From an uncultured Planctomyces sp. (GTDB lineage: Bacteria; Planctomycetota; Planctomycetia; Planctomycetales; Planctomycetaceae): a DNA stretch of 50,473 bases. The stretch's first letter is position 1; each line of letters starts with the position of its first letter. Positions 5,208 through 42,150 of the stretch are shown here, one piece after another. A program made the translations under genes and the position numbers. Under the pieces are notes generated by a model. That model had not been told where the DNA came from. It worked only from the letters and a program-made list of their open reading frames with translations, and ran no database searches. Location of the stretch: the NCBI GenBank assembly GCA_937904325.1, contig CALGTK010000124.1, positions 1 to 50,473 on the forward strand. Direction: 5' to 3'.

Positions 5208-6614
5208 ATGATCAAGTCACTCCTTTGCGCGATTGTCCTTCTGCTCGCGTCGACATCCACGGCGTTTGCTGACTCCGTTTCGTATTTTCGTCAGCACTCC
5301 GGCGTTGCCAACAGCAAGGGATTGCCTTCCGACCTGACCGCTGCTCGACCGCGTTGGGTCAGTCCACTCAAGCCGGGGAATTCGACGCCTTGTGTTCATG
5401 AAGACTCGATCTATCTGACGACGTGGGACGAGGAAAGGAAAGAACTCGCCACCGTCTCGATTGATCGATCGACTGGAGACATGAACTGGAAGCAGGTTGC
5501 CCCTGCACAAGCGGTGGAAAAGTTTCACCGCGTGGGCAGCCCTGCATCCTGCAGTGTGGCGTGTGATGGCGAACGGATCTTCGCGTTCTTCGGCAGCTAC
5601 GGAATGCTGTGCTACGACCTGGCCGGTACGGAGCTCTGGAAAAAGCCAATGGGCCCGTTCCAGGACGAATTCGGAGCCAGCAGTTCTCCCATTCTGATCG
5701 ACGGTAAATTGATCCTTAATTCGGACCACGATCTCGACAACTTTCTGATCGCACTCGATCCGATAACAGGCAAGCAACTCTGGAAAACCAATCGAAACGA
5801 CTTCACTCGCAGCTACTCAACACCGGTGGTGTGGAACGTCAACGGCAGAAATCAGATCGTGGTGGCCGGGTCGCTCAAACTGGTTGCGTACGATCCGTCG
5901 AATGGCAAGTCAATCTGGTGGATTAACGGACTCTCTCGAATTGTCGATACCACACCAGTCGTCAGAGGCAACCGCTTGTTTGTTGCGACGTGGACTCCTG
6001 GCGGAGATCCCAGCGAGCGGATTTCAATGGAGTCATTCGAAGAAGCTCTGAAAGCCTACGACAAAAACAGCGATAACGAAGTCGGCAAGGACGAACTGCC
6101 CAAGGGCAGTCCGGTCACGCCGCGATTCTTCCGGATCGATCTGGATCAGAACGAAAAACTGAATCTGGAAGAATGGAATGCTCACGCCCGAGTCTTCAAA
6201 CTCGCTCAGAATGTCGCGATGTCGGTCAAGGCCGGCGGCCAGAGCGACGTGACGGAGACTCATGTTGATTGGATTCAGCGAAAGAGCCTGCCGACCGTAC
6301 CCAGTCCATTGGTCTATCGAAACGAATTCTACATGATCAAGGATGGCGGAATAATGACGGCACTGGATGTCACCAACGGAGAGATTCTGCAACAGGGTCG
6401 ACTGGAAGGCCGAGGCAACTATTACGCATCACCCGTGGCCGGCGACGGCTTGATCTACACTGCCAGCGAACAGGGAGTCGTCACAATTATCAAAGCCGGA
6501 CCTAAGTGGGACGTTCTGTCATCGCACGATTTCAAGCAACGAATCATGGCAACGCCGGTAATTTCGCAAGGCCAGTTGTTTATCCGAACGGATGCGGCGC
6601 TGTACTGCTACTAA
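5208..6614 (+). CDS. Exported PQQ-like beta-propeller protein with EF-hand insertion
   Basis: The 468-residue protein starts with a signal peptide (MIKSLLCAIVLLLAS...TAFA, cleavage near residue 22). The chain then shows repeated propeller blades of the YWTN/PQQ_2 type, with recurring 'GK-LWK' and 'V.Y..S..G' elements. Two EF-hand-type loops interrupt the propeller: residues 285-296 (DKNSDNEVGKDE) and 311-322 (DLDQNEKLNLEE). The second keeps the acidic or amide ligands at positions 1, 3, 5 and 12. PQQ-type propellers are ligand-binding scaffolds or dehydrogenases. No catalytic assignment is possible here, and PQQ binding is not demonstrated. Calcium binding is inferred from the loops. Confidence 0.85.
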   Translation: MIKSLLCAIVLLLASTSTAFADSVSYFRQHSGVANSKGLPSDLTAARPRWVSPLKPGNSTPCVHEDSIYLTTWDEERKELATVSIDRSTGDMNWKQVAPAQAVEKFHRVGSPASCSVACDGERIFAFFGSYGMLCYDLAGTELWKKPMGPFQDEFGASSSPILIDGKLILNSDHDLDNFLIALDPITGKQLWKTNRNDFTRSYSTPVVWNVNGRNQIVVAGSLKLVAYDPSNGKSIWWINGLSRIVDTTPVVRGNRLFVATWTPGGDPSERISMESFEEALKAYDKNSDNEVGKDELPKGSPVTPRFFRIDLDQNEKLNLEEWNAHARVFKLAQNVAMSVKAGGQSDVTETHVDWIQRKSLPTVPSPLVYRNEFYMIKDGGIMTALDVTNGEILQQGRLEGRGNYYASPVAGDGLIYTASEQGVVTIIKAGPKWDVLSSHDFKQRIMATPVISQGQLFIRTDAALYCY

Positions 6615-12752: not shown

Positions 12753-14093
12753 CTATCCGTGACTGTCATCGTTCTTACGCATCGCGTCAGTACTGCCTGT
12801 CTGACTGGAGATATGTGTGCTGCGGATGCGTTTTCGATGAGCGTGCAGTCCGACGACCAGAATCTCGATCGCTTTTCCCATTTCACTCATCGCCCGACGA
12901 GTCTGTTTTTTGTCGAGCGCTTCGCGAGCGGCTTTAATTGAATTTGCGTGTGAAGGCCAGTCAATCTCCCAACTCTCTTCGTTGGCGATGCGGTGCAGTT
13001 CTCGTTCGATCTTTGCCAGGCCCGCCATGAACTCCTTCGTTGTCCGGGCACTCGACATCGTGTATGCCTGAGTGTGAATCTTCGCACCTGAACCCCGGGC
13101 GGCAGCAGATTCGCATTTCGCCAACCACTGCCAGATCAGCACAAACAAACTAACTGCTCCAATACCGGTGACGGTCCCTCCCGCAACGAAGCGCTGCGTG
13201 GCCAGCAGAATGCCACCTATTCCGAGTACGACAACCGTAATCCAGAAGGCCAGCGTCCAGAACGGCCCCATACCACTCGAACTTTTACGTCGACCGGCGA
13301 CCGGCGTCTGCGTACCGGGTGCTTTGGTCGCTGCCTCTTTACTGGCTTCGGCCACGACCACGGTGATGTTGTCAGAACCGCCTCGAAGGTTCGCCAGATT
13401 GACGAGAAGTCTCGACGATTCCTCGATCGGTAACTCCCGGACAATCATGCCGATTTCCGTATCTTTCACATGGCCAGTCAAACCGTCCGAGCAAAGAACG
13501 AAGCGATCGCCCGGTAGCACTGGATGTGGTCCGTTGATGTCAACTTTGACCGACGGCTCTGGACCAAGCGATCGAGTAATGACGTGCTTGGCTTCGGGAA
13601 GAAAGACGTCTCCTGGTTTGAGACGGCCAGCACGTTGCAGTTCCCAGTGGAGGCTGTGGTCGAAAGTCAATTGCTCGATGCGATCTTCGCGGATTCGATA
13701 GATTCGACTGTCGCCAACATGGCCGGTGATAGCGCCGTGCGGCGACAGCACGAGTGCAACGCATGTTGTCCCCATGCGTTTGAAGTCTTCGTTCTGCGAA
13801 CCGCGTTCATGAATCGCAGCGTTGGCATTTTCGATCGCTTCGAGCAGTGCATTCTGCGTGACGTCAGCTCGGCTCTTGAAAAATGTCAGAGGGATCGTGT
13901 CGACAGCGATCTTACTCGCGAGTTCTCCGACTGCGTGACCGCCCATTCCGTCGGCGACGATGAAGAGGTGACCGTACTGGTTCCAGGTTTCGTGGTCTCC
14001 ACACAGTTGTACGGTAGCCGAATCCTGATTGTTCTTTCGGCGCATGCCGATATCGCTGATCGTTGCGTACTGGACTTTCTGTTCCCAGCGCAT
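12753..14093 (-). CDS. PP2C-type Ser/Thr protein phosphatase with membrane segments
   Basis: The 446-residue protein has an N-terminal PPM/PP2C domain (about 8-245). Its metal-binding motifs are all visible: RRKNNQDS (Asp24), VADGMGGH (Asp48), GHVGDSRIY, LCSDGLTGH and GGSDNITVVV. Two hydrophobic segments follow at about 275-320, so the catalytic domain is probably cytoplasmic and tethered to the membrane. The C-terminal 120 residues are helical and carry no family I recognise. Such phosphatases remove phosphate from Ser/Thr residues and often oppose a neighbouring Hanks-type kinase. Here the kinase gene lies 250 bases upstream on the same strand. Confidence 0.93.
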   Translation of the reverse strand: MRWEQKVQYATISDIGMRRKNNQDSATVQLCGDHETWNQYGHLFIVADGMGGHAVGELASKIAVDTIPLTFFKSRADVTQNALLEAIENANAAIHERGSQNEDFKRMGTTCVALVLSPHGAITGHVGDSRIYRIREDRIEQLTFDHSLHWELQRAGRLKPGDVFLPEAKHVITRSLGPEPSVKVDINGPHPVLPGDRFVLCSDGLTGHVKDTEIGMIVRELPIEESSRLLVNLANLRGGSDNITVVVAEASKEAATKAPGTQTPVAGRRKSSSGMGPFWTLAFWITVVVLGIGGILLATQRFVAGGTVTGIGAVSLFVLIWQWLAKCESAAARGSGAKIHTQAYTMSSARTTKEFMAGLAKIERELHRIANEESWEIDWPSHANSIKAAREALDKKQTRRAMSEMGKAIEILVVGLHAHRKRIRSTHISSQTGSTDAMRKNDDSHG

Positions 14094-14343
14094 CGGGGGT
14101 TCCCGTCGAAAATCGCAGTGTTCTAACCGGCTGCGAGATGTCGTTCCTGAAAGGCCTGGCCCGGCGTTCCGTTGATTTTGAAATTACAATTGGGGATTCA
14201 GTTTTGCGGACGTGTACCATTGACCGCAAGTCCGTGCCGGTCTTCAGACAACTCTGCCTCGTCAGTTCACAACATCGAATTCGTCATTACGTGACTGTTC
14301 TGCCAGACATAGCGAAATCTGTTTGCCGGTGTCGACAGACTGT

Positions 14344-16215
14344 TTACGTATCAAAATGCCGATTGAGCAGACGGATTCGATTGACCTGGTGTGAGATAAC
14401 AACGCCAATCACGACGAGAATTGCCGAAAAAATCATGGGATAATGCCAGGGAGTCGCTTCGATCGGCTTCGTGTAGAGAAAAAGTGCATACGAAATCAGC
14501 GAAACGCTGGTCATAAAAAGGACAAGGGATTCCTGGATAAACAACCCGGACGCGGCAATCAGTAAAGGGTAAACGACCAACAGCGGACCGGCCGGCGGTG
14601 CCGAAAGTACGAGCATCTTTGTGATGAAGATCGCGTCGGATCCGAGCCAGATAAATCGCGAAACGGTGGCAAGCTGCTCGCTGCGCTGCAGTTTTTGAAA
14701 CATGAATGCAGTCACCGCCCAGAACGCCAGCAACTGGAAAAACATATCGCGGACACCGAAACTGACCTCTCCAGCGAGATGCGACAGTTCCAGAATCGCC
14801 GCTCCGCAGACAATCGCTGACCAGCGTGAAGCGAGCGCCGGTTCGCGCCGCATCCAACGGCGAAGTCGGTGATAGATTCCTCGCGGACCGGCGGCGACAG
14901 GGTCTCCTTTGAGGAATCGGTCAAGGTCGTCCACCAGTGCGTCTGCCGATTCGTAACGCTGCAAAGGATCTTTATCGAGACATCGCAGGCAGATTGATTC
15001 GAGTTCCCGCGGGATATCTCGATTAAAGTAGCGTGGGACTTCCGGATCTGATTCGATGACTCGGACCAGTGTCTCCATCGCGTTGGCACCTTTATTAGGA
15101 AGCTGGCCAGTCAACGCTTCGTACAGAATGACTCCAAGACTGTAGATATCGCTGGCCGGTCCGACTTCATCCAGCCGCCCAGTTGCCTGTTCCGGGGACA
15201 TGTAATTCGGCGTTCCGACGATCGTGCCGCTGTCTGTACGATCGTCATCATTCTGACGATCACCTGGCTGAGTCACTCGCGCGAGTCCAAAGTCGGTCAC
15301 ACGCGGCTGGCCGGACTCGTCGATGAGTATGTTGCTCGGTTTCAAGTCTCGATGAATGATGCCGTGAGCGTGCAAATAGCCAGCCGCTCGAGCCACGTCC
15401 CGAATTGTTCGAGCTATCTGTTCAAACGTCAGCCGCGCGTCCGGACGAAGTCGTCGGGTCGATGACGATATGTCGTCTGATGACGAACCGTCTGCGGCCG
15501 TTTCTGCATCTGACGTTTGAATGGGAGTTGGCAACATCGAACGAATTTCCAATGTTGAATGTGCCGGCCCCGCTGCCAGTACTTTTTTTAAGTCGACTCC
15601 CTCGATGCAATCCATCGAAAAAAAGTGCTGACCATGAACATCACCGACTTCGTGAATGCCGACGATGTTGGGATGACTTAATCGTCCGGCCGCTTGCGCC
15701 TCCTGATAGAAACGGCGAATTTGATCCTGCGAGGCCAGACGGTTTACCAGAATCATCTTGATGGCGACGATTCGGTTGAGGTCTGTCTGCCGAGCTCGAA
15801 AGACGACGCCCATCCCTCCACGTCCGAGTTCCTCAAGTAGCTCGAACCGGCCAAACTGACGCGTAGCCATTGTTTCCGCAGGTGATTCAGAATCTCCACC
15901 GTCAGTTGCGTCGCTGTCAAACGGCAATTCAGGAAACGCTTCGAGTAACGTCGCCGCAAATTCTACATCCGGAGTCATTCGGTCGAGTGTTCCGAGTGGC
16001 TCGACAAAATCCTTTAGAACGATATTTGCTTCCAGCAAGGCGTTCTGCTGGGGAATGTCGTTCCGATGAACTGCCGATACATATTGATCGAGTACGTTGA
16101 CCAGGTGGCTTTCAAGATCGTCCAGCGGAGTCGCTTCGTTCAATTCGGCATCAAGCAAACCGGATTCGCCGCTCGTATCTTCTGACAAATCATCCGTGTC
16201 CTGAGTGTCTGTCAT
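14344..16215 (-). CDS. Hanks-type Ser/Thr protein kinase with polytopic membrane domain
   Basis: The 623-residue protein has a 120-residue acidic N-terminal region and then a complete kinase domain. It shows the Gly loop GRGGMG (131-136), Lys153 in AIK, HRDLKPSN (catalytic loop, about 289-296), DFG at 308-310, GTPNYMSPEQA in the activation segment and SDIYSLGVILYE. A Ser/Asp-rich insertion of about 45 residues (about 215-260) interrupts the domain before the catalytic loop. About six hydrophobic helices fill residues 465-615, so a C-terminal membrane domain may sense a signal or anchor the kinase. The adjacent PP2C phosphatase is the likely antagonist. Substrates are unknown. Confidence 0.95.
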   Translation of the reverse strand: MTDTQDTDDLSEDTSGESGLLDAELNEATPLDDLESHLVNVLDQYVSAVHRNDIPQQNALLEANIVLKDFVEPLGTLDRMTPDVEFAATLLEAFPELPFDSDATDGGDSESPAETMATRQFGRFELLEELGRGGMGVVFRARQTDLNRIVAIKMILVNRLASQDQIRRFYQEAQAAGRLSHPNIVGIHEVGDVHGQHFFSMDCIEGVDLKKVLAAGPAHSTLEIRSMLPTPIQTSDAETAADGSSSDDISSSTRRLRPDARLTFEQIARTIRDVARAAGYLHAHGIIHRDLKPSNILIDESGQPRVTDFGLARVTQPGDRQNDDDRTDSGTIVGTPNYMSPEQATGRLDEVGPASDIYSLGVILYEALTGQLPNKGANAMETLVRVIESDPEVPRYFNRDIPRELESICLRCLDKDPLQRYESADALVDDLDRFLKGDPVAAGPRGIYHRLRRWMRREPALASRWSAIVCGAAILELSHLAGEVSFGVRDMFFQLLAFWAVTAFMFQKLQRSEQLATVSRFIWLGSDAIFITKMLVLSAPPAGPLLVVYPLLIAASGLFIQESLVLFMTSVSLISYALFLYTKPIEATPWHYPMIFSAILVVIGVVISHQVNRIRLLNRHFDT

Positions 16216-21646: not shown

Positions 21647-23326
21647 ATGAACAGGATTTCGAAATGGCTGGCGGGGGCCGCCGCTACAGTTGCCATTGTA
21701 CTGGGATCGGCCGATGCAGAAGCTCAGCGTGGACGTCCCGGTGGCGATTCATCAGACCGCCCTGACCCGTCGGAAATGTTTCAGCGGATCGACAAGAATA
21801 AAGACGGCGAGTTGTCGAAAGACGAACAGGATGGTTTGCCGGAATTTATTCAGGAACGAATCAAAGGTGCCGACGCGGATAACAACGGTTCGCTGACGAA
21901 AGAAGAAGTGCGAGCGTTTTTCCAGAAAACTGGCGGACGACCTGGTGGAGAAGGCGGCCGTCCCGGCGCCGGACGCGATGACGATCGACGTGGCCCCGAC
22001 GGTCCGCCGTCACGAGGCGATGGTGACCGACGCGGCCCTGAAGGTCGGGATGGAGATCGTCCTCGCCGACCAGACGGTCCGCCACCGCGACGTGATGAGG
22101 ATCGACGTGGTCCGGCTCACGAACGCGACGATCGTGGTGGCGGAAGCCCCGGCGGACCTCCACACATGAATGGACGCGGACCATCGAAAGGCGGCAACGC
22201 TCATCGAGGCCCCGGTCGCGATGCTGGTAAGCGGGGAGAAGCTAAGAGAGGCGGCCCAGCAAAAGGTGGTCACAACTCCCGCAATACAGGAAAAGGAAAA
22301 CCCGGAGTCAGCAAGTCTGGCAAAGACCGTGGACCATCGGCTCGCAAGGGCCGGAGCGGCCGGTCATTCGGACCTCCCATGCGAGCTGGACGACCTTCGT
22401 TCTCAGGTCACAGGGTTGGCCCTGGCGGACCTCCGTGGGCACAAGGTGGCGGAAATGGGCGTGACGGAAAAGGTCGTCCATCATTTGGCCAAGGTCCTTC
22501 CAGAATGGGACCACCATGGCTGCAACGCGGTAAGTCATTTGGCCGTGGACCATCGTTCGGCAACTCCCGCTCAGGACGCCCTCAGATGGGGCCACCGTGG
22601 GTGAACCAGCGAGGGCCGTCGAAAGGCGGACCATCCAAAGGACGAAGCTCGTCCCGCGGTAAGTCTCCACAGAGCAAGTCCCACGGCCGCTCACAGGCCG
22701 GACGAAAGCCTTCACATGGCTCTCGTGGAGCGGGTCCTGATCGAGGTCGGCCAGAGCACGGCAGTAAACCAGGTTCAGCTGGTCGTCCTGGTCATCGCGG
22801 GCCTGAGCACGGTCGACGAGCAGGTAACCGTGAAGGACGACCTGAGCATGGTACGCGCCCAGAAGGCGGACGAGAAAGTGGACGGCCGCCGGGACCTCCA
22901 CATGGTGGACCTCGTGACGGTGGACCTCGTGACGGTGGACCTCGTGACGGTGGACCTCGTGGTGAACAGGGTGATCGACAGGGTCTTCCTCGTGGAAAAG
23001 GTCGGCCTGTTCGACCAGAAGGCAAAAGCCAACCGGATCGACGTCAAGCTTCTTTGACGGCTAACACGGAAACAGTTGTTGAATCGGCAGCGGAAGAAAT
23101 TGTCGAAGAGCTTGAAGTCGCCGAAATCGAAGAGTTGAAACCGACTCTAGTCACGGCTGAAGAACTGCCGGAGATCGTTCCGGGACTGATCGTTCCGGAA
23201 AGTCCGGCACTCCCTGAGGATGATTCAACAGTCGCTGCCGAAGAATATGTGCCGCCCGAACGGTTTGTTGAATCAGTCGATTCAGTTGTCGCGACACCTG
23301 TCGAAACAATTGCTACGCCTGAGTGA
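21647..23326 (+). CDS. Exported EF-hand protein with long Arg/Gly/Pro-rich region and acidic tail
   Basis: The 559-residue protein starts MNRISKWLAGAAA, with GGAGA 6 bases before the ATG. The signal peptide ends at AEA (residue 26). Two complete EF-hand loops follow: DKNKDGELSKDE (49-60) and DADNNGSLTKEE (76-87). Residues about 96-465 are low-complexity and almost entirely Gly, Pro, Arg, Ser, Lys, His and Asp, with many GPP, GGP and RDGD steps. The last 90 residues switch sharply to an acidic, Glu/Val-rich tail. I infer a secreted or surface calcium-binding protein with a polybasic disordered region; it could bind polyanions. It is 200 bases upstream of the EF-hand kinase gene, with a strong terminator between them. 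Confidence 0.8.
   Translation: MNRISKWLAGAAATVAIVLGSADAEAQRGRPGGDSSDRPDPSEMFQRIDKNKDGELSKDEQDGLPEFIQERIKGADADNNGSLTKEEVRAFFQKTGGRPGGEGGRPGAGRDDDRRGPDGPPSRGDGDRRGPEGRDGDRPRRPDGPPPRRDEDRRGPAHERDDRGGGSPGGPPHMNGRGPSKGGNAHRGPGRDAGKRGEAKRGGPAKGGHNSRNTGKGKPGVSKSGKDRGPSARKGRSGRSFGPPMRAGRPSFSGHRVGPGGPPWAQGGGNGRDGKGRPSFGQGPSRMGPPWLQRGKSFGRGPSFGNSRSGRPQMGPPWVNQRGPSKGGPSKGRSSSRGKSPQSKSHGRSQAGRKPSHGSRGAGPDRGRPEHGSKPGSAGRPGHRGPEHGRRAGNREGRPEHGTRPEGGRESGRPPGPPHGGPRDGGPRDGGPRDGGPRGEQGDRQGLPRGKGRPVRPEGKSQPDRRQASLTANTETVVESAAEEIVEELEVAEIEELKPTLVTAEELPEIVPGLIVPESPALPEDDSTVAAEEYVPPERFVESVDSVVATPVETIATPE
22904..22963 (+). repeat. 15-bp tandem repeat within the coding region
   Basis: GGTGGACCTCGTGAC occurs three times and is followed by a fourth copy ending GGT. 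It encodes repeated GPRDG steps and keeps the frame, so copy-number change would alter protein length without a frameshift. Confidence 0.9.
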
Positions 23327-23355
23327 GTTATTGAGAGCGATCCATGATGAATGCG

Positions 23356-23396
23356 AGCGGTGTCTAAACGAATAAGTTCGTTTAGACACCGCTTTT
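23356..23396 (+). terminator. Very strong terminator after the EF-hand gene
   Basis: A perfect 17-bp stem pairs 23356-23372 with 23377-23393 across a TAAG tetraloop, followed by TTTT (counting the last base of the arm). It lies 29 bases after the stop codon and separates this gene from the kinase gene. Confidence 0.9.
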
Positions 23397-23526
23397 CCAT
23401 TGGAGAACCTGTTTCTCGCAGCCTTCATTATGGAGTTGGTGCAGCGCCGGTGGACTGTTCGTTATGCTTGATGGTATTTACCCTGTTGATTCTTCGCTGC
23501 TGTCGACCGCTTGAAGGGAACCCGGC

Positions 23527-26046
23527 ATGACAACTCCATCAGGTCAACCGGAAAGCCAATCTGACACTCCGCCGAACGATGCTGAACCAACGCTGATCGG
23601 CGACGTCCCGCTGCCATCAGTTTCCAGCAATACCGACGATGATGCAGAACCCACCGATGTGAAGCCACTTGATCCCACCGCCACTCTCGATGAAATCCCG
23701 ATCGGAGATACCAAAAACGTCGATGAAACGCTGATCAGTCAGACGGCCCACTCGCTGGGCGAAGCCGTTTCGAAGTCCGGCGTCCCAGCGGCCTCAAAGA
23801 AAAAAACAACTGTCAACGAGTCCAATTTCCCGGACGAGTTCGGTCGATACACGATTAAAAAGGAACTTGGCAAAGGGGCTATGGGCGCCGTTTTCCTTGC
23901 ACGAGACACGCAACTGAACCGCGATGTCGCGCTGAAAGTGCCCACATTTACGGACAGGTCTCCGGCCAACATGATCGAGCGTTTCTATCGCGAAGCACGC
24001 TCGGCTGCGACACTGACTCATCCCAACATTTGCCCGGTGTACGACGTCGGCGAGCACGACGGCACACACTTCATTTCGATGGGGTTTATCAAAGGTCGAC
24101 CGCTTTCGGCGTACATCGAATCTGGCAAGAAGCAGCCAGAGCGTCAGGCTGCGGCCGTGGTGAAGAAGCTGGCACTCGCTCTGCAGGAGGCTCATGACAA
24201 GGGCATCATTCATCGTGACTTGAAGCCCGCCAACATCATGATCGATCAGCGCAGCGAGCCGGTCGTCATGGACTTCGGGCTGGCCCGCCTGACCAACGAT
24301 AAGGAAGAATCTCGACTGACTCGTGAAGGTGCGGTGATGGGGTCGCCGGCTTACATGTCACCAGAACAGGTTGAGGGAAAGAACCTGGGGCCGCACTGCG
24401 ACGTATATAGCCTCGGCGTAGTATTCTACGAATTGCTGACCGGACAGACTCCGTACCAGGGGACCGTCGTCAGCGTCATCGGTCAAATTCTCGCCGCGAA
24501 TCCGAAGACGCCTATCGATCTGCGACCAGACATCTCACCTGAATGTTCGGCCGTCTGCCTGAAAGCGATGGCCAGTAACAAAGCGGAGCGGTTTCAGTCG
24601 ATGGCCGAATATGCCAAAGCGCTGGATGCGTTTATCAAAGGTGATTCGGAGGCAATCGGAACATTTGTTGAACTTGAGCCCGAAGAAGATGGCCCTTCGC
24701 TGGATGAACTGAAAGAGCAAAAGGCATCGGTCACTTCATTCATCAAAAAGAAGCAGTACAAGAGCGCAGTTTCGGTCTTGGCTACAATGTCTGAACTAAA
24801 AGGGAAGGACGTTGATGACGCCGCCGCGTGGGCGAAGAAGCAGCTTCCGCGAGCACAGGAACACTACGAAAAGTCCGCTGAGGAATCGAAAGCTCTGTTC
24901 CGCCGCGCTAAGAAAAACATGGCCGCTAACGACTACGAACGTGCGTCGCAGCAGCTTGGCCAGATTCCGAAAGACCTCAGAAGCAACGCGGTGTCTGATC
25001 TGAAGGCAGAAGCCGACGACATTGTGAAAGAAGTTAAACGATTGTCGGACGACGTGGCTCACGCTACACAGTCAGGCGTTCATGACGAAATGTTGCCTAC
25101 AGTCGAACGGCTTCTCGAGCTAAAACCGCAGCATCGCCAGGCCAACGATCTCTACGAGCAGCTTTACAGCAGTAAACGCGGCGCAAGACCGACCCGCAGT
25201 GCATCGACGCGAGGAAAGTCGCCACGCGGAAAATCGAAAACCGGTACGAGTGTCGATCCGAAACTGATCGGCGGGACTGTTGCTGCAGTCGTGTTGCTGG
25301 TAGTGATCGTGGCTTTCTGGCCGCGTAGTAATTCGGATCCCAGGGACCAGATAAAAGTCGACACGGGTACAGCACAGCCTGACGGTAACGATTCCATTTC
25401 TAGTGAGCTGGCAATCGCCGCCTCGTCATCAACTGGTACAAAACGGGTCGAGGGCAGAGACGAGAACTCGAACGATGACTGGCAGTTGGCTCGAGAATCC
25501 CTCAAAACTAATCGCCACCGAACGCCGGAAGACCTCTTTTCGCACTTCGACAGGAACGACGATCGGCGACTCGGTCAGTCTGAAATCAACCCGGCAATTA
25601 TTTCTCAATTTGATCAAAACAACGACTTAAAATTGGATATCCAGGAAGTACGTGACAGCTTTGACCAGATTTTCGACCGACCTCGCGGGCCGAGAAATGA
25701 CGACCAAGGTGAGCTTTCTCCACCACTGGCTGGTTCGCCCGACAACAATCCCCCGTTTGATAAAGGACCGCCGCGAGAGAATCGTCCAGGCCGAGGTTTC
25801 GGTCGACCGGAGGATATCTTCTATCGACATGACAAGAACCAGGATGGGATCATCGCGGGCGATGAGTTTCCACCATTTTTCAGCGACAAGATTGACCAAA
25901 ATGATGATGGCGAGATCACTCTCGACGAACTTCGCCGCACGGTGAAGGATTTCGGAACAGACGCGTTTCTTCGGCCACCAGGCGGTGACGGTGGTCGCCC
26001 AAGACCTCGAGACCACGGCCCACGGCTTCCCCGTCTTCGAGATTAG
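23527..26046 (+). CDS. Transmembrane Ser/Thr protein kinase with four extracytoplasmic EF-hand loops
   Basis: The 839-residue protein opens with an acidic 100-residue segment and a complete Hanks-type kinase domain (about 105-375). The Gly loop is GKGAMG (114-119), the catalytic loop HRDLKPAN (229-236), DFG is at 249-251, and GSPAYMSPEQ lies in the activation segment. A helical, TPR-like region (about 395-555) follows. One membrane helix lies at about 580-600 (LIGGTVAAVVLLVVIVAFW). The outer part has four EF-hand loops starting at residues 675, 696, 769 and 790, in two pairs, and ends with a Pro/Arg/Gly-rich tail. I infer a receptor kinase whose outer domain binds calcium. The second and fourth loops look best conserved (DQNNDLKLDIQE, DQNDDGEITLDE). 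Confidence 0.93.
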   Translation: MTTPSGQPESQSDTPPNDAEPTLIGDVPLPSVSSNTDDDAEPTDVKPLDPTATLDEIPIGDTKNVDETLISQTAHSLGEAVSKSGVPAASKKKTTVNESNFPDEFGRYTIKKELGKGAMGAVFLARDTQLNRDVALKVPTFTDRSPANMIERFYREARSAATLTHPNICPVYDVGEHDGTHFISMGFIKGRPLSAYIESGKKQPERQAAAVVKKLALALQEAHDKGIIHRDLKPANIMIDQRSEPVVMDFGLARLTNDKEESRLTREGAVMGSPAYMSPEQVEGKNLGPHCDVYSLGVVFYELLTGQTPYQGTVVSVIGQILAANPKTPIDLRPDISPECSAVCLKAMASNKAERFQSMAEYAKALDAFIKGDSEAIGTFVELEPEEDGPSLDELKEQKASVTSFIKKKQYKSAVSVLATMSELKGKDVDDAAAWAKKQLPRAQEHYEKSAEESKALFRRAKKNMAANDYERASQQLGQIPKDLRSNAVSDLKAEADDIVKEVKRLSDDVAHATQSGVHDEMLPTVERLLELKPQHRQANDLYEQLYSSKRGARPTRSASTRGKSPRGKSKTGTSVDPKLIGGTVAAVVLLVVIVAFWPRSNSDPRDQIKVDTGTAQPDGNDSISSELAIAASSSTGTKRVEGRDENSNDDWQLARESLKTNRHRTPEDLFSHFDRNDDRRLGQSEINPAIISQFDQNNDLKLDIQEVRDSFDQIFDRPRGPRNDDQGELSPPLAGSPDNNPPFDKGPPRENRPGRGFGRPEDIFYRHDKNQDGIIAGDEFPPFFSDKIDQNDDGEITLDELRRTVKDFGTDAFLRPPGGDGGRPRPRDHGPRLPRLRD

Positions 26047-26339
26047 GTATCATCATAGTTATTGTGCGGGACTGGCTCGCTGAAGAATCGTTGTTTCTCT
26101 GGTACCCTCATGCGGGACAGTGAAGACAAACTTTGAATGTGTTCCGGCGGTTTTTCTGAGTGGACTCGGCAGGTCGCAATCCGGTAATCAAAAGACGGTG
26201 ACTGATCTCGCATCAAACTTTTCTGCAGATTTATCGGCTGCTTATCAATTCGGAACAAATCAAAACATACGTGAGTCCATAATTTAAGTTGTGCCGACCG
26301 CAAAGCAGCGGCGGACTTTTGTCTCAGGAGTGCATCTCG

Positions 26340-27149
26340 ATGAAAAAGTTTGGTATCAGTCTGGTAGTTGTGGCAGTGGCCGCAATGGTCAGTTCCGTCG
26401 TTATTGCTCAGCCCCCTGGTGGTGGCGTGCGGCCTGGTGACGGCGAGCGACGAGGCTCACAAGGTCAGCGCAGTGATGGCCCTCCTTCCCGTCGAGAAGG
26501 CGATCGTGACGGTGGCCCACCACCACGCCGTGACGGCGGACGTGGCGGAGAAAGTGGACGCGGTGGCGAGGAACGAGGCTTCGGACCTCCGCCGAATCCA
26601 GTCATGATGGCTCTGGACGCCGATGGCGATCACATCATCTCGGCCGCTGAGATCAAAAACGCTGCCAGGGCTCTCGCCAAACTCGACAAGAACAAAGATG
26701 GAAAACTCACTCAGGACGAACTACGTCCAGACGGCCCACCGTCACGCGACGGAGAAGGCGGTCGCGGTGGACAGCGTGGACGACCTGGTGAAGGTGGGCG
26801 TGGTGGTGAAGGCGGTCGTCCCGGCAACGCTGACGAGTTCCTCGATCGAGTCATGAGCTTCGACGAGAACAAAGACGGAAAAATCAGCCGCAAAGAGATG
26901 CCCGAGCGGATGCAGCGAATGCTCGATCGAGGAGACACTAACAAAGACGGGGCACTGGATCGTGACGAACTCAAGAAGATGTTCGAAAGCTTCCAGGGCG
27001 GCCGTGGTGGTCAGAGCAGTGGTGGTCAGGGCAGTGGACGCCCTCAGCGAGATGGCGATCGACCAACTCGTGACGGTGATCGCCCACCGCGGGACGACGA
27101 TGCAGGTGGTGGTGGGCAGCGTCCAAAACGGCCGGCTGCTGAAGAGTAA
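26340..27149 (+). CDS. Exported EF-hand protein with four loops and Gly/Arg-rich linkers
   Basis: The 269-residue protein starts MKKFGISLVVVAVAA, with AGGAG 9 bases before the ATG. The signal peptide ends near residue 24 (VIAQ). Four canonical EF-hand loops are present: 93-104 (DADGDHIISAAE), 116-127 (DKNKDGKLTQDE), 175-186 (DENKDGKISRKE) and 199-210 (DTNKDGALDRDE). They form two pairs. Gly/Arg/Asp-rich disordered linkers (about 25-85, 130-165 and 218-269) separate and flank them. It resembles the 21.6-kb protein in plan but lacks the acidic tail. Calcium binding is strongly expected from the loops; the role is unknown. It lies 293 bases after the EF-hand kinase. Confidence 0.85.
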   Translation: MKKFGISLVVVAVAAMVSSVVIAQPPGGGVRPGDGERRGSQGQRSDGPPSRREGDRDGGPPPRRDGGRGGESGRGGEERGFGPPPNPVMMALDADGDHIISAAEIKNAARALAKLDKNKDGKLTQDELRPDGPPSRDGEGGRGGQRGRPGEGGRGGEGGRPGNADEFLDRVMSFDENKDGKISRKEMPERMQRMLDRGDTNKDGALDRDELKKMFESFQGGRGGQSSGGQGSGRPQRDGDRPTRDGDRPPRDDDAGGGGQRPKRPAAEE

Positions 27150-27191
27150 ACTCAATAGTTAAAAATGTTCTCCTGAACGAAGGCTGAAACG

Positions 27192-27230
27192 CCCGATCGG
27201 TGACCAACGCGGTTGCCGATCGGGTTTCTT
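27192..27230 (+). terminator. Terminator after the second EF-hand protein gene
   Basis: CCCGATCGG (27192-27200) pairs perfectly with CCGATCGGG (27216-27224) and is followed by TTTCTTC. It lies 43 bases after the stop codon and closes the EF-hand group. Confidence 0.85.
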
Positions 27231-39382: not shown

Positions 39383-40270
39383 AGTCGGACTCCAGACTTG
39401 TTATGCGGTTACAGCACCTTGCCATCGCAGGTGAATAGCCTTAGAGACGCATGCCAGACACGTTCGATGTACGTCCCGAGCGACAGGCAACCGCGATGCG
39501 ACCGAATTCTTGCAGTTGGCAGAGACAATTTCACGCCGGTTGCGTCAACGAAGTTGCGTCCCACCAGGACTTTCTTCAACGTGCCTGAGCGGATAGTGCA
39601 GACTGCGTTTGGTTCGAAATCGCAGCCACCATTGGACAACCACACCAAAACGCAGTGATTTGTGAGATACTGCGACTCAGAGCAAAAAGTAGCGATAGCC
39701 GAGGCAGGACTCGAAATTGTGCGGAATTCCCCAGCAAATACGCAATTCCTGAAGGCAGGCGGTGCAGTGTCTGTAGATGGAAAACATGATAAGCGTCTAC
39801 AGCTGCTGATAGACGTCTGGCCCACACTTCCTAATGTCAATCGGGAACGACTCATCATTCTGATCTCTGATCGGCTTAGAGAAGACCGTTGAGTGTTCCA
39901 GTCAATGTGTAAGGGGCTGTTGCGCCTGAATGCGTAATTGCATCCGATTTTGTCGACTGATGCATTTCAGTCGCGTGCCACTCAGGCTGGATCGCCACGT
40001 TCATGCGTCCTCACACTGATGACAGCCGGCGTTGCAACAGTCCGACCATTCGCAGCTCCGGTCCCGACCGGATGCAATTTGAATGTTTCCCTTCGTGCTG
40101 CTGGTCGCGATACCGGGCGCAGACTGGCAGATTTCCAGCAGTCATCCATTTCAGTACGAGACCCCGATGCCAGCTATTCTGGTGGGTTAAACTCGACGCG
40201 ATTGTGACATTGCACGCAAAAACGGAAAAGAATGTCAGGATTTCGCTCCTGTATCCGTTCTACTTCTGAC
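39383..40270. other. 888-base region with one short frame and little else
   Basis: Between the divergent esterase and ECF sigma genes I see only the small frame at 39662-39892. A CAGGA/TCCTG dyad lies at 40236-40251, 20 bases before the sigma factor start. It must also contain the promoters of both flanking genes. No sigma consensus was identified with confidence. Confidence 0.4.
39662..39892 (+). CDS. Small hypothetical protein, possibly a fragment
   Basis: A 76-codon frame starts at a GTG with no evident ribosome site; a stop codon lies just upstream in the same frame. The C-terminal half, LQLLIDVWPTLPNVNRERLIILI, resembles a 'WPTLP' helical tail I associate with short planctomycete reading frames that often lie near recombinase genes. 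It may therefore be the 3' remnant of a larger element. No recombinase is seen here. The function is unknown. Confidence 0.35.
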   Translation: MRYCDSEQKVAIAEAGLEIVRNSPANTQFLKAGGAVSVDGKHDKRLQLLIDVWPTLPNVNRERLIILISDRLREDR

Positions 40271-40795
40271 ATGGCACTTTCCGAGCAAGATATTCTCTGC
40301 GTTCTGATGAAGTCCCGCGACCGTATTGCGGCAGCGGCGTGGGTCGTTGTTCGTGATGCTCAGGCGGCGGAAGACATCTTTCAAAACGTCGCTATCAAGG
40401 CGATGACGAAGGAAGTCAGCTTCGACGCGGAAGGAGCAGTGCTTTCCTGGGGCTTTATAACGGCTCGACGGGAAGGCATTGACTGGATGCGTCGGCATCG
40501 GAACGAAACGTCAATTCTGGACGCAGAAATCCTGATGCTGCTCGAAAAGGATTGGCTTTCGGAGAGCCAACGCGAAGATTCCCGCACCAAAGCACTGCGC
40601 AATTGTCTTCGCGAGTTGCCTCAGAAATCAGCCGAGATACTTCGTCTGCGGTATTCTAAGGGCCTTGCCTGTGGGGCAATTGCCGAACGCCTGGAAACGG
40701 GACGTGACGCCATTTACAAGAGGTTGTCTCGGCTGCATCAGGCTTTAAGGGAGTGTGTTGAGACGCGTCTCGCAGATGCAAGAGTGGACGTATGA
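40271..40795 (+). CDS. ECF-type RNA polymerase sigma factor
   Basis: The 174-residue protein has region 2 (AWVVVRDAQAAEDIFQNVAIKAM, which matches the sigma-70 'DAEDLVQEVFLRA' helix) and region 4 (LRELPQKSAEILRLRYSKGLACGAIAERLETGRDAIYKRLSRLHQALRECV, a helix-turn-helix). Region 3 is absent, as in ECF factors. The ATG at 40271 is the best start because the 13 codons before it are not family-like. It overlaps the FecR-like gene by four bases (ATGA), which implies coupled translation with its likely anti-sigma partner. It probably directs transcription of this operon. Confidence 0.93.
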   Translation: MALSEQDILCVLMKSRDRIAAAAWVVVRDAQAAEDIFQNVAIKAMTKEVSFDAEGAVLSWGFITARREGIDWMRRHRNETSILDAEILMLLEKDWLSESQREDSRTKALRNCLRELPQKSAEILRLRYSKGLACGAIAERLETGRDAIYKRLSRLHQALRECVETRLADARVDV

Positions 40796-42150
40796 ATGAC
40801 CGTAAATCCACTCTCGAGCTGCTGCTGCGGTATCTCGACAACGACTTGCCTTCGGACGAACGAACTGACGTCGAAGACCTGCTGCGACAGGACGGGGCTG
40901 CGAGAGAGATATTTCGAGAGATCGCGCAACAGGCGGTGGTCGTTGCAGATGTGGCACGGGTCGGTGGCGCATCGCGCGTCGAGAAAACCGCCAAAGTATC
41001 CAGCGGCATCCGGGGACGTTCGGCAACACGCCAGAGATTGATGCTGGCCGTTGCCGCCATCGCGCTTCTCGCGGTGACTGTAAGCTTGTTGCGTCGAGGC
41101 GGTGAGCCAGAGATCGTCACGATTAAGGCATTGAATGGTCCGGTCGAGTGGATCGGCAGTGGCGGCTGCGTGACAAGGGAGCTCGTTGTTGGCGGAACTT
41201 TGCCTGGCGGTACGATTGAGTTGCTGAGTGCGTATTCGTGGATCGAGTTTGAATTTCTCGATGAATCAACAGTCACACTCTCCGGGCAAGCGGCCGTCAC
41301 CATTTCTGAACAGAAGCAAAAAGAATTACATCTGCGGTATGGCAGTCTTTCTGCCAACGTCCAGCCACAGCCCACCGATTGTCCGATGCTCGTGCACACT
41401 CCGTCTGCCGAATTAAAGGTCCTGGGAACGCAGTTTAATGTTGATGCCCTCTTTGAATCGACACGGCTCACCGTGAATAAGGGCCGCGTAAGACTCAAGC
41501 GGTTGACTGATGGCAGAGAAGTCGACGTGACGGCGAAGTACGAGGTGACGGCTTCGATGGAAGGCCAGGATGGACTGCCTCTGAGCACACGAGGGCGAGC
41601 CGTTTCTGTCTGGAAGAGTGCTCTAAGGACGGATGTCGTTCGTGGAAAGTGGCTTTCCGATCATTGGATGCTCGGGATGCAGCTCAAGAAAGCTGTTGCA
41701 AGCGGTCAGATGAGCAAGGCCGATGCCGTTGCTGCTTATAAAAACGCTGCAGCGTTTGACGCCGAGGGCGGAAGCGTCTGGGCCGATGCTTCACCGTACG
41801 GGTCATTGGTGCTGCTTTCGGTGACGCAGTTGTCAGCGACGCCGGTTGTGCTCAGCGCCACCGCAAGCATTCGGATCAAGGGCCGACTGCATTCGAGCGA
41901 TTCAGTAAAGTTTGGACTCACGACGAAGAAGTCCGCCGGCGGGTTTGGCGGAAAGTACAGCGTCTCCGTTGAAGGTGACGCTTTGCGCAGTGACGACAAC
42001 TCGTTTGAGATTGAACTGCCATTGAACGAGTTTGACGAAGTGACAGAATCTGGTGATTCGTTGATTGGAAAAGAGCTCAGTGATTGGTGGTGTGTGGCCG
42101 AATCATCGTCAGCGAAATTTGAGATCACTAGCGTCGAAATGATAGAGTAA
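40792..42150 (+). CDS. FecR-like anti-sigma/regulator with one membrane helix
   Basis: The 452-residue protein has an N-terminal cytoplasmic segment (ELLLRYLDNDLPSDERTDVEDLL), the helical anti-sigma pattern that usually binds the cognate ECF factor. One membrane helix spans about 82-100. The FecR domain (about 110-240) contains LLSAYSWIEFEFLDESTVTLSG, LHLRYGSLSANV and HTPSAELKVLGTQFNVD. A further region of about 180 residues holds a helical segment at about 295-320 and a beta-rich end. It is translationally coupled to the sigma gene. FecR-type proteins sense an extracytoplasmic signal and control the sigma factor. Confidence 0.9.
   Translation: MNDRKSTLELLLRYLDNDLPSDERTDVEDLLRQDGAAREIFREIAQQAVVVADVARVGGASRVEKTAKVSSGIRGRSATRQRLMLAVAAIALLAVTVSLLRRGGEPEIVTIKALNGPVEWIGSGGCVTRELVVGGTLPGGTIELLSAYSWIEFEFLDESTVTLSGQAAVTISEQKQKELHLRYGSLSANVQPQPTDCPMLVHTPSAELKVLGTQFNVDALFESTRLTVNKGRVRLKRLTDGREVDVTAKYEVTASMEGQDGLPLSTRGRAVSVWKSALRTDVVRGKWLSDHWMLGMQLKKAVASGQMSKADAVAAYKNAAAFDAEGGSVWADASPYGSLVLLSVTQLSATPVVLSATASIRIKGRLHSSDSVKFGLTTKKSAGGFGGKYSVSVEGDALRSDDNSFEIELPLNEFDEVTESGDSLIGKELSDWWCVAESSSAKFEITSVEMIE

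Follow-up and report, generated by a model that had tools for sequence, protein, structure and literature searches.

Three adjacent EF-hand genes

The stretch of DNA analysed here, referred to as the window, is C124, a 50,473-nucleotide contig from a planctomycete assembly of 8.0 Mb, the source genome (G000); other genomes are cited by G, genera by g and families by f. Three consecutive plus-strand genes in the window, here called A, K and B, all encode EF-hand loops (Table 1), and their coordinates and anatomy agree with the first-pass annotation that had described them. Each of the three exceeds at least one Pfam EF-hand cut-off, and EF-hand_6 passes its curated cut-off for all of them. Measured against paired 12-residue loops with ligands at positions 1, 3, 5 and 12 and glycine at position 6, they qualify as EF-hand proteins, although in K this glycine is absent from loops 1 and 2.

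Table 1. Features of the A-K-B region, in window positions, and location of the g40 locus
Feature	Position	Strand	Remarks
Gene A, EF-hand protein	21647..23326	+	559 aa, exported-looking
A signal-peptide-like N-terminus MNRISKWLAGAAATVAIVLGSADAEAQ	21647..21727	+	read from sequence
A EF loop 1 DKNKDGELSKDE	21791..21826	+	
A EF loop 2 DADNNGSLTKEE	21872..21907	+	
Terminator-like hairpin between A and K	23357..23392	+	16-bp perfect, then TTTT; DNA folding
Gene K, receptor-like Ser/Thr kinase, PknB-like	23527..26046	+	839 aa, intact
K catalytic domain, residues 108-357	23848..24597	+	Pkinase 1.6e-48; VALK, HRD, DFG, APE-region residues
K cytoplasmic helical (TPR-like) region, residues ~392-551	24700..25179	+	
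K single membrane helix, residues ~579-598	25261..25320	+	strongly hydrophobic; basic toward kinase
K EF loop 1 DRNDDRRLGQSE	25549..25584	+	degenerate, lacks Gly6
K EF loop 2 DQNNDLKLDIQE	25612..25647	+	degenerate, lacks Gly6
K EF loop 3 DKNQDGIIAGDE	25831..25866	+	canonical; D1 and E12 invariant in 13 kinases
K EF loop 4 DQNDDGEITLDE	25894..25929	+	canonical; D1 and E12 invariant in 13 kinases
Gene B, four-EF-hand protein	26340..27149	+	269 aa, exported-looking, signal-like N-terminus
B EF pair 1 (DADGDHIISAAE, DKNKDGKLTQDE)	26616..26720	+	
B EF pair 2 (DENKDGKISRKE, DTNKDGALDRDE)	26862..26969	+	
Terminator-like hairpin after B	27191..27225	+	15-bp
g40 EF-kinase/ECF sigma/small exported EF locus	L221:891-4453, L222:1796-5392, L225:7060-10730		

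Signal-like N-termini read from the sequences of both A and B support the earlier claim that these proteins are exported. Beyond its two EF loops, A has a Gly/Arg/Pro-rich middle and an acidic tail; this part (window 21938-23326) comprises about 370 Gly/Arg/Pro-rich residues with repeated MGPPW motifs, its acidic tail is conserved, and the protein is strongly polyampholytic and predicted to be exported. Among the relatives searched, A is found in its own genus only. The B family, in contrast, is present in 133 of the 150 genomes of the taxonomic family, and a kinase almost never lies beside it. B has a conserved C-terminus, RPKRPAAEE, and across the family (window 26340-27149, L235-L258) the C-terminal motif RPKRP(A/E)..E is kept behind low-complexity sequence. 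In the congener G001, a REP-like inverted repeat (CGTCATTCCCGC ... GCGGGAATGACG) lies immediately upstream of B, near a contig end (L267:200-240). The Gly/Arg/Pro character said to be shared by all three proteins is borne out only in part: A and B are 20% glycine, the outer part of K 9%.

Matches of A and B to lanmodulin and to a type III effector (XopAW) lie far under the respective cut-offs and reflect generic EF-hand similarity. Lanmodulin is marked by proline at position 2 and aspartate at position 9 of its EF loops. We rejected this identity; no loop has Pro2, and B scores 39.6 bits against an NCBIfam cut-off of 135.

At a loose threshold (E <= 0.1) the 8 Mb source genome yields about 30 ORFs with EF-hand matches, and the neighbour statistics for this genome rest on these listed matches. 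Among them, A, K and B are the only ones that lie side by side; assuming about 6,300 genes, three EF-hand genes in a row would be expected about 0.001 times. The same genome has 55 Pkinase-family matches. Elsewhere in the window, a second membrane kinase on the minus strand (12753-16215) adjoins a PP2C-type phosphatase with two membrane helices, and the two are likely a kinase-phosphatase pair. The exported protein encoded at 5208-6614 is a PQQ/BamB-like propeller whose middle bears a weak EF-hand insert, and overlapping genes at 40232-42150 encode an apparent ECF sigma factor and then a FecR-like membrane protein, after which come cytochrome and DUF1501-type genes.

K, a receptor-type kinase with a predicted EF-hand ectodomain

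K has the features of a Hanks-type Ser/Thr kinase: its Pkinase match is over the curated cut-off, and the lysine, HRD, DFG and APE-region residues are in place. All of its catalytic residues (K137, E156, H229-R230-D231, D249-F250-G251 and E280) are invariant in an alignment of 13 kinases drawn from six genera (g1, g4, g9, g14, g40 and g85). AlphaFold2 models the kinase and the helical region with confidence and includes a membrane helix, and the closest solved fold to the whole-chain model in Foldseek is PknB of M. tuberculosis. The single hydrophobic helix, also present in the model, is flanked by a net charge of +9 N-terminally and -3 C-terminally, a positive-inside pattern that by this heuristic makes K a receptor-like transmembrane kinase. 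Since the basic flank is on the kinase side and the kinase needs ATP, the EF loops are placed outside. The proposed layout, with the catalytic domain (Pkinase, 108-357) before one membrane helix (~579-598) and four EF loops after it, is borne out, and the predicted location of the EF-hand domain on the outer face is supported, given a cytoplasmic kinase, a single helix and positive-inside charge.

The four loops form two pairs, of which the distal one is canonical, and K scores 27.8 against the EF-hand_6 cut-off of 25 in Pfam. Aspartate at position 1 and glutamate at position 12 are invariant in both distal loops of all 13 aligned kinases, and the K orthologue of the congener G005 (L041:6426-8660) has lost the degenerate membrane-proximal pair and kept the distal one. 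Some g4 homologues lack Gly6 in both distal loops. Between congeners, dN/dS is 0.04-0.05 in the kinase domain, about 0.15 in the distal EF pair and about 0.5-0.65 in the linker after the helix; by these sequence comparisons, the distal EF pair of K is under purifying selection. The predicted EF folds have a pLDDT of about 70-80: in the AlphaFold2 model of K an EF pair at 760-815 shows short strands that pair, as is usual for EF hands (pLDDT ~76), and in the ectodomain modelled alone both pairs reach ~75-82. Foldseek matches the ectodomain to calcyphosine, calmodulin and troponin C, if modestly (E 3.5e-4 and up, TM ~0.25-0.3), the low TM being due to a disordered linker that joins the two EF pairs. 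The EF pairs of these kinases are carried on long disordered Pro/Arg/Gly-rich linkers, and an RPP/RPRP tail is conserved.

Like the PASTA kinases (PknB/Stk1), K has a Hanks-type catalytic domain, one membrane helix and a C-terminal outer ectodomain. It differs from them in that its ectodomain consists of EF-hand pairs without PASTA repeats, of which a Pfam scan of K found none, and in an extra cytoplasmic helical region before the helix. Its score against NCBIfam PknB_PASTA is 310.6 bits, under the cut-off of 450, and the match covers residues 106-427 only, so we do not assign it to that class. The CDPK/CPK kinases of plants and apicomplexans likewise combine a Ser/Thr kinase with four following EF-hand loops in one chain, but their kinase and EF domains are both cytosolic and touch through an autoinhibitory junction. 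K is bacterial and PknB-like, and a membrane helix parts its kinase from its EF loops, which excludes a CDPK identity; the likeness is one of domain order. K is a variant of the receptor-type Hanks kinase, distinct from both CDPK and PASTA kinases. At most by analogy, it could work like a CDPK split across the membrane.

The kinase-TM-EF architecture recurs in related genera

Proteins with a kinase domain, a membrane helix and an EF pair occur in at least seven genera and two families of the class (g1, g4, g9, g14, g40 and g85, and g110 in the other family, f5). Besides the genus of K, the carriers are G008 and G146 (g4), G013 (g9), G018 (g14), G128 (g85), G214, G204, G159 and G195 (g40), and G235 and G244 (g110). 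All five relatives scanned have kinase and EF-hand Pfam matches, with several EF scores near the cut-off. A contig scan with general kinase motifs yielded neither relatives of the window nor further true EF-kinases among the matches listed. We judged single-loop EF matches in WD40-type and other kinases (L142, L159, L175, L183, L198) to be chance matches, and left out as uncertain two single-loop cases, L181 from Anaerolineales and G331, whose loop lies between other domains.

In a tree of 110 kinase domains, built by quick search with SH-aLRT support only, the EF-kinases cluster, and a supported clade holds those of g1, g85, g14 and g40. Three rows in this clade are labelled non-EF; contig ends cut them before the ectodomain. 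The EF-kinases of g4 and g9 are placed elsewhere, so that EF-kinases are not all one clade, and the EF label must have changed at least three times, by gain or loss, given the supported branches. These placements and forced changes argue that kinases acquired or exchanged the EF ectodomain on more than one occasion. As read from this tree, it is a module gained or swapped repeatedly among planctomycete kinases. Most kinases of the clade of K bear other ectodomains (LamG-like, sulfatase-activating-like, repeats), and the EF pair may be one among many interchangeable binding modules.

Do A, K and B belong together?

Orthologues of K are present in four of the six genomes of the genus. G003 preserves A, K and B in full order; G005 has the tail of A followed by K and B, and G004 has K and B, with A at a contig end. 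The first-pass annotation had asked whether the genes stay together elsewhere: within the genus they do where the order is readable, as in G003, whereas beyond it the relatives compared show no triad, only a partial echo in g40. The conserved order is in any case weak evidence for a system because the entire surrounding region is syntenic in the genus, from cytochrome c', phosphoglucomutase and UbiA through A, K and B to UDP-glucose dehydrogenase-like and photolyase-like genes, hemH and pheA.

Folding of the intergenic DNA revealed the hairpin between A and K. Three species share it, the two congeners among them showing paired base changes, and A and K are therefore probably separate transcripts. 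The terminators that had been placed between all the genes are clear here and at the end of B, but none is evident in the K-B gap, where folding of the intergenic DNA gave no clear hairpin. In G001 (93% complete), A sits at the end of one contig and B at the beginning of another. No K is encoded in the 383 bp preceding B, nor was K found elsewhere in the assembly; contig ends hinder this test. This arrangement suggests that A and B are able to exist without K, subject to the assembly gaps of G001.

These comparisons do not support the three genes forming one system as proposed. The triad is restricted to one genus among the relatives compared, a conserved hairpin parts A from K, and B occurs family-wide, normally away from kinases. 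No EF neighbour lies beside the EF-kinases of g4, g9, g14, g85 and g110 in the stretches read. An EF gene is linked to the kinase in two of the seven EF-kinase lineages, which looks higher than a rough expectation of 2%, but the pattern was noticed post hoc and does not serve as a formal test. A and B are best described as separate exported EF-hand proteins for which a pathway shared with K is possible; a single pathway joining all three is a guess.

The second linked lineage is g40. In three g40 species a convergent ECF sigma gene, which is TIGR02984, Planctomycetaceae-specific and over its cut-off, comes after the EF-kinase gene, and beyond it lies a gene for a small exported protein of 149 aa that has a single EF loop (Table 1). 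The C-terminus of this small protein resembles that of B, and the two have a signal region and a PKRP..E end in common; with one EF loop and low-complexity sequence, it was rejected as a B ortholog. In a fourth g40 species (G195) the EF-kinase lies elsewhere, without ECF sigma or exported EF neighbours. From gene arrangement, the g40 locus lends partial independent support to a link between EF-kinases and exported EF proteins.

Discussion

On present sequence evidence, the outer-face EF-pair kinase is real, selected and recurrent. Ca2+ as its in vivo ligand, Ca2+ control of the kinase and the targets of that control are what we infer. We lean slightly toward a reading in which K is a receptor kinase whose outer EF pair binds Ca2+ and so controls the kinase. 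The catalytic domain and helical region would lie in the cytoplasm, one helix would cross the membrane, and the EF-hand pair would be held outside on disordered Pro/Arg-rich linkers, where it would most likely bind Ca2+. Binding would change the folding or dimerisation of the ectodomain, and this in turn would alter trans-autophosphorylation of the kinase. In PknB, ligand-induced dimerisation is likewise thought to affect trans-autophosphorylation.

Several observations count against calcium sensing: two of the four loops of K are degenerate, the distal loops of some g4 homologues lack Gly6, and EF hands in millimolar Ca2+ may be permanently filled and hence structural. Alternatively, the EF pair could be an always-loaded, Ca2+-stabilised docking or adhesion module, with calcium as a structural cofactor and K sensing another cue, such as contact with a surface, the cell wall, the matrix or a partner protein. 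Related kinases within that clade do bear other binding-type ectodomains, the long disordered linkers and conserved RPP/RPRP tail suit a docking role, and EF-hand proteins are common in these genomes, as the roughly 30 ORFs of the source genome illustrate. The EF ligand positions, however, are as strictly kept as either role predicts, so that sequence cannot decide, and the exported EF proteins near two EF-kinase lineages fit a calcium theme; we consider a docking module rather unlikely. That the EF hands are meant for a metal other than calcium, for instance Mg2+ or a lanthanide, is very improbable. B does match lanmodulin weakly (E 5e-10 in NCBIfam, far under the cut-off, and 0.0007 in a PDB search), but the loops are of the ordinary Ca2+ type, none with proline at position 2 or aspartate at position 9.

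A further alternative concerns A and B and is compatible with Ca2+ control of K. The triad could be a neighbourhood of descent, in which EF modules were duplicated locally or the order was inherited within one genus, and A and B are independent of K. The synteny of the whole region, the family-wide spread of B, usually away from kinases, the restriction of A to the genus and the conserved A-K hairpin all point this way, as do the EF-kinases of five other genera (g4, g9, g14, g85, g110), beside which the stretches read show no EF gene, and the congener G001, which retains A and B with K not found. Against it stand the three g40 species in which an exported EF protein, its C-terminus resembling that of B, is encoded close to an EF-kinase, and the fact that the triad is the only side-by-side EF cluster among the listed ORFs of the source genome. 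To us this is an even call. That exported EF proteins and EF-kinase jointly read outside Ca2+ and pass the signal to transcription, in g40 via the adjacent ECF sigma factor, seems doubtful to us.

Ser/Thr kinases are an accepted means of regulating ECF sigma factors (PMC8103513), and the ECF sigma gene beside the g40 EF-kinase is a plausible output of the kinase. The g40 locus is a compact candidate system in which calcium may control an ECF sigma factor. In Caulobacter, the periplasmic EF-hand protein CaBP acts on the ECF sigma factor SigV via an unknown membrane component (PMC13171946); by analogy, the EF-kinase at the g40 locus could fill this role. By description, CaBP and EfhP of Pseudomonas (PMC9132961) resemble A and B as exported or envelope EF-hand proteins, and both have been linked to gene control, CaBP through its tie to an ECF sigma factor (PMC13171946, PMC9132961). 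Unlike the triad, they come without a kinase.

The expansion of Ser/Thr kinases with varied extra domains in planctomycetes has been described (PMC8567305). K resembles these kinases (PMC8567305 and references there), which are of the same phylum, have swapped extra domains and in some cases lie beside ECF sigma genes. The open literature examined makes no mention of an EF-hand ectodomain on planctomycete kinases. Prokaryotic EF-hand fusions listed in PMC7016017 include 7TM, NOS/NADPH oxidase, cNMP-binding, thioredoxin and sulfatase proteins and no kinase, and the words EF-hand and calcium are absent from a survey of kinase architectures (PMC1262709).

EF-kinases illustrate the exchange of ectodomains among planctomycete kinases. 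For the conversion of outside calcium to regulation in bacteria, periplasmic EF-hand sensors are known and the membrane step is missing (PMC13171946); kinases with EF hands across the membrane are a concrete candidate for that step. This architecture, recurrent in related genera, makes calcium sensing by bacterial kinases directly testable, in a single-protein test. If true, a pathway from calcium to transcription through such kinases would be a bacterial counterpart of the CDPKs, built across the membrane.
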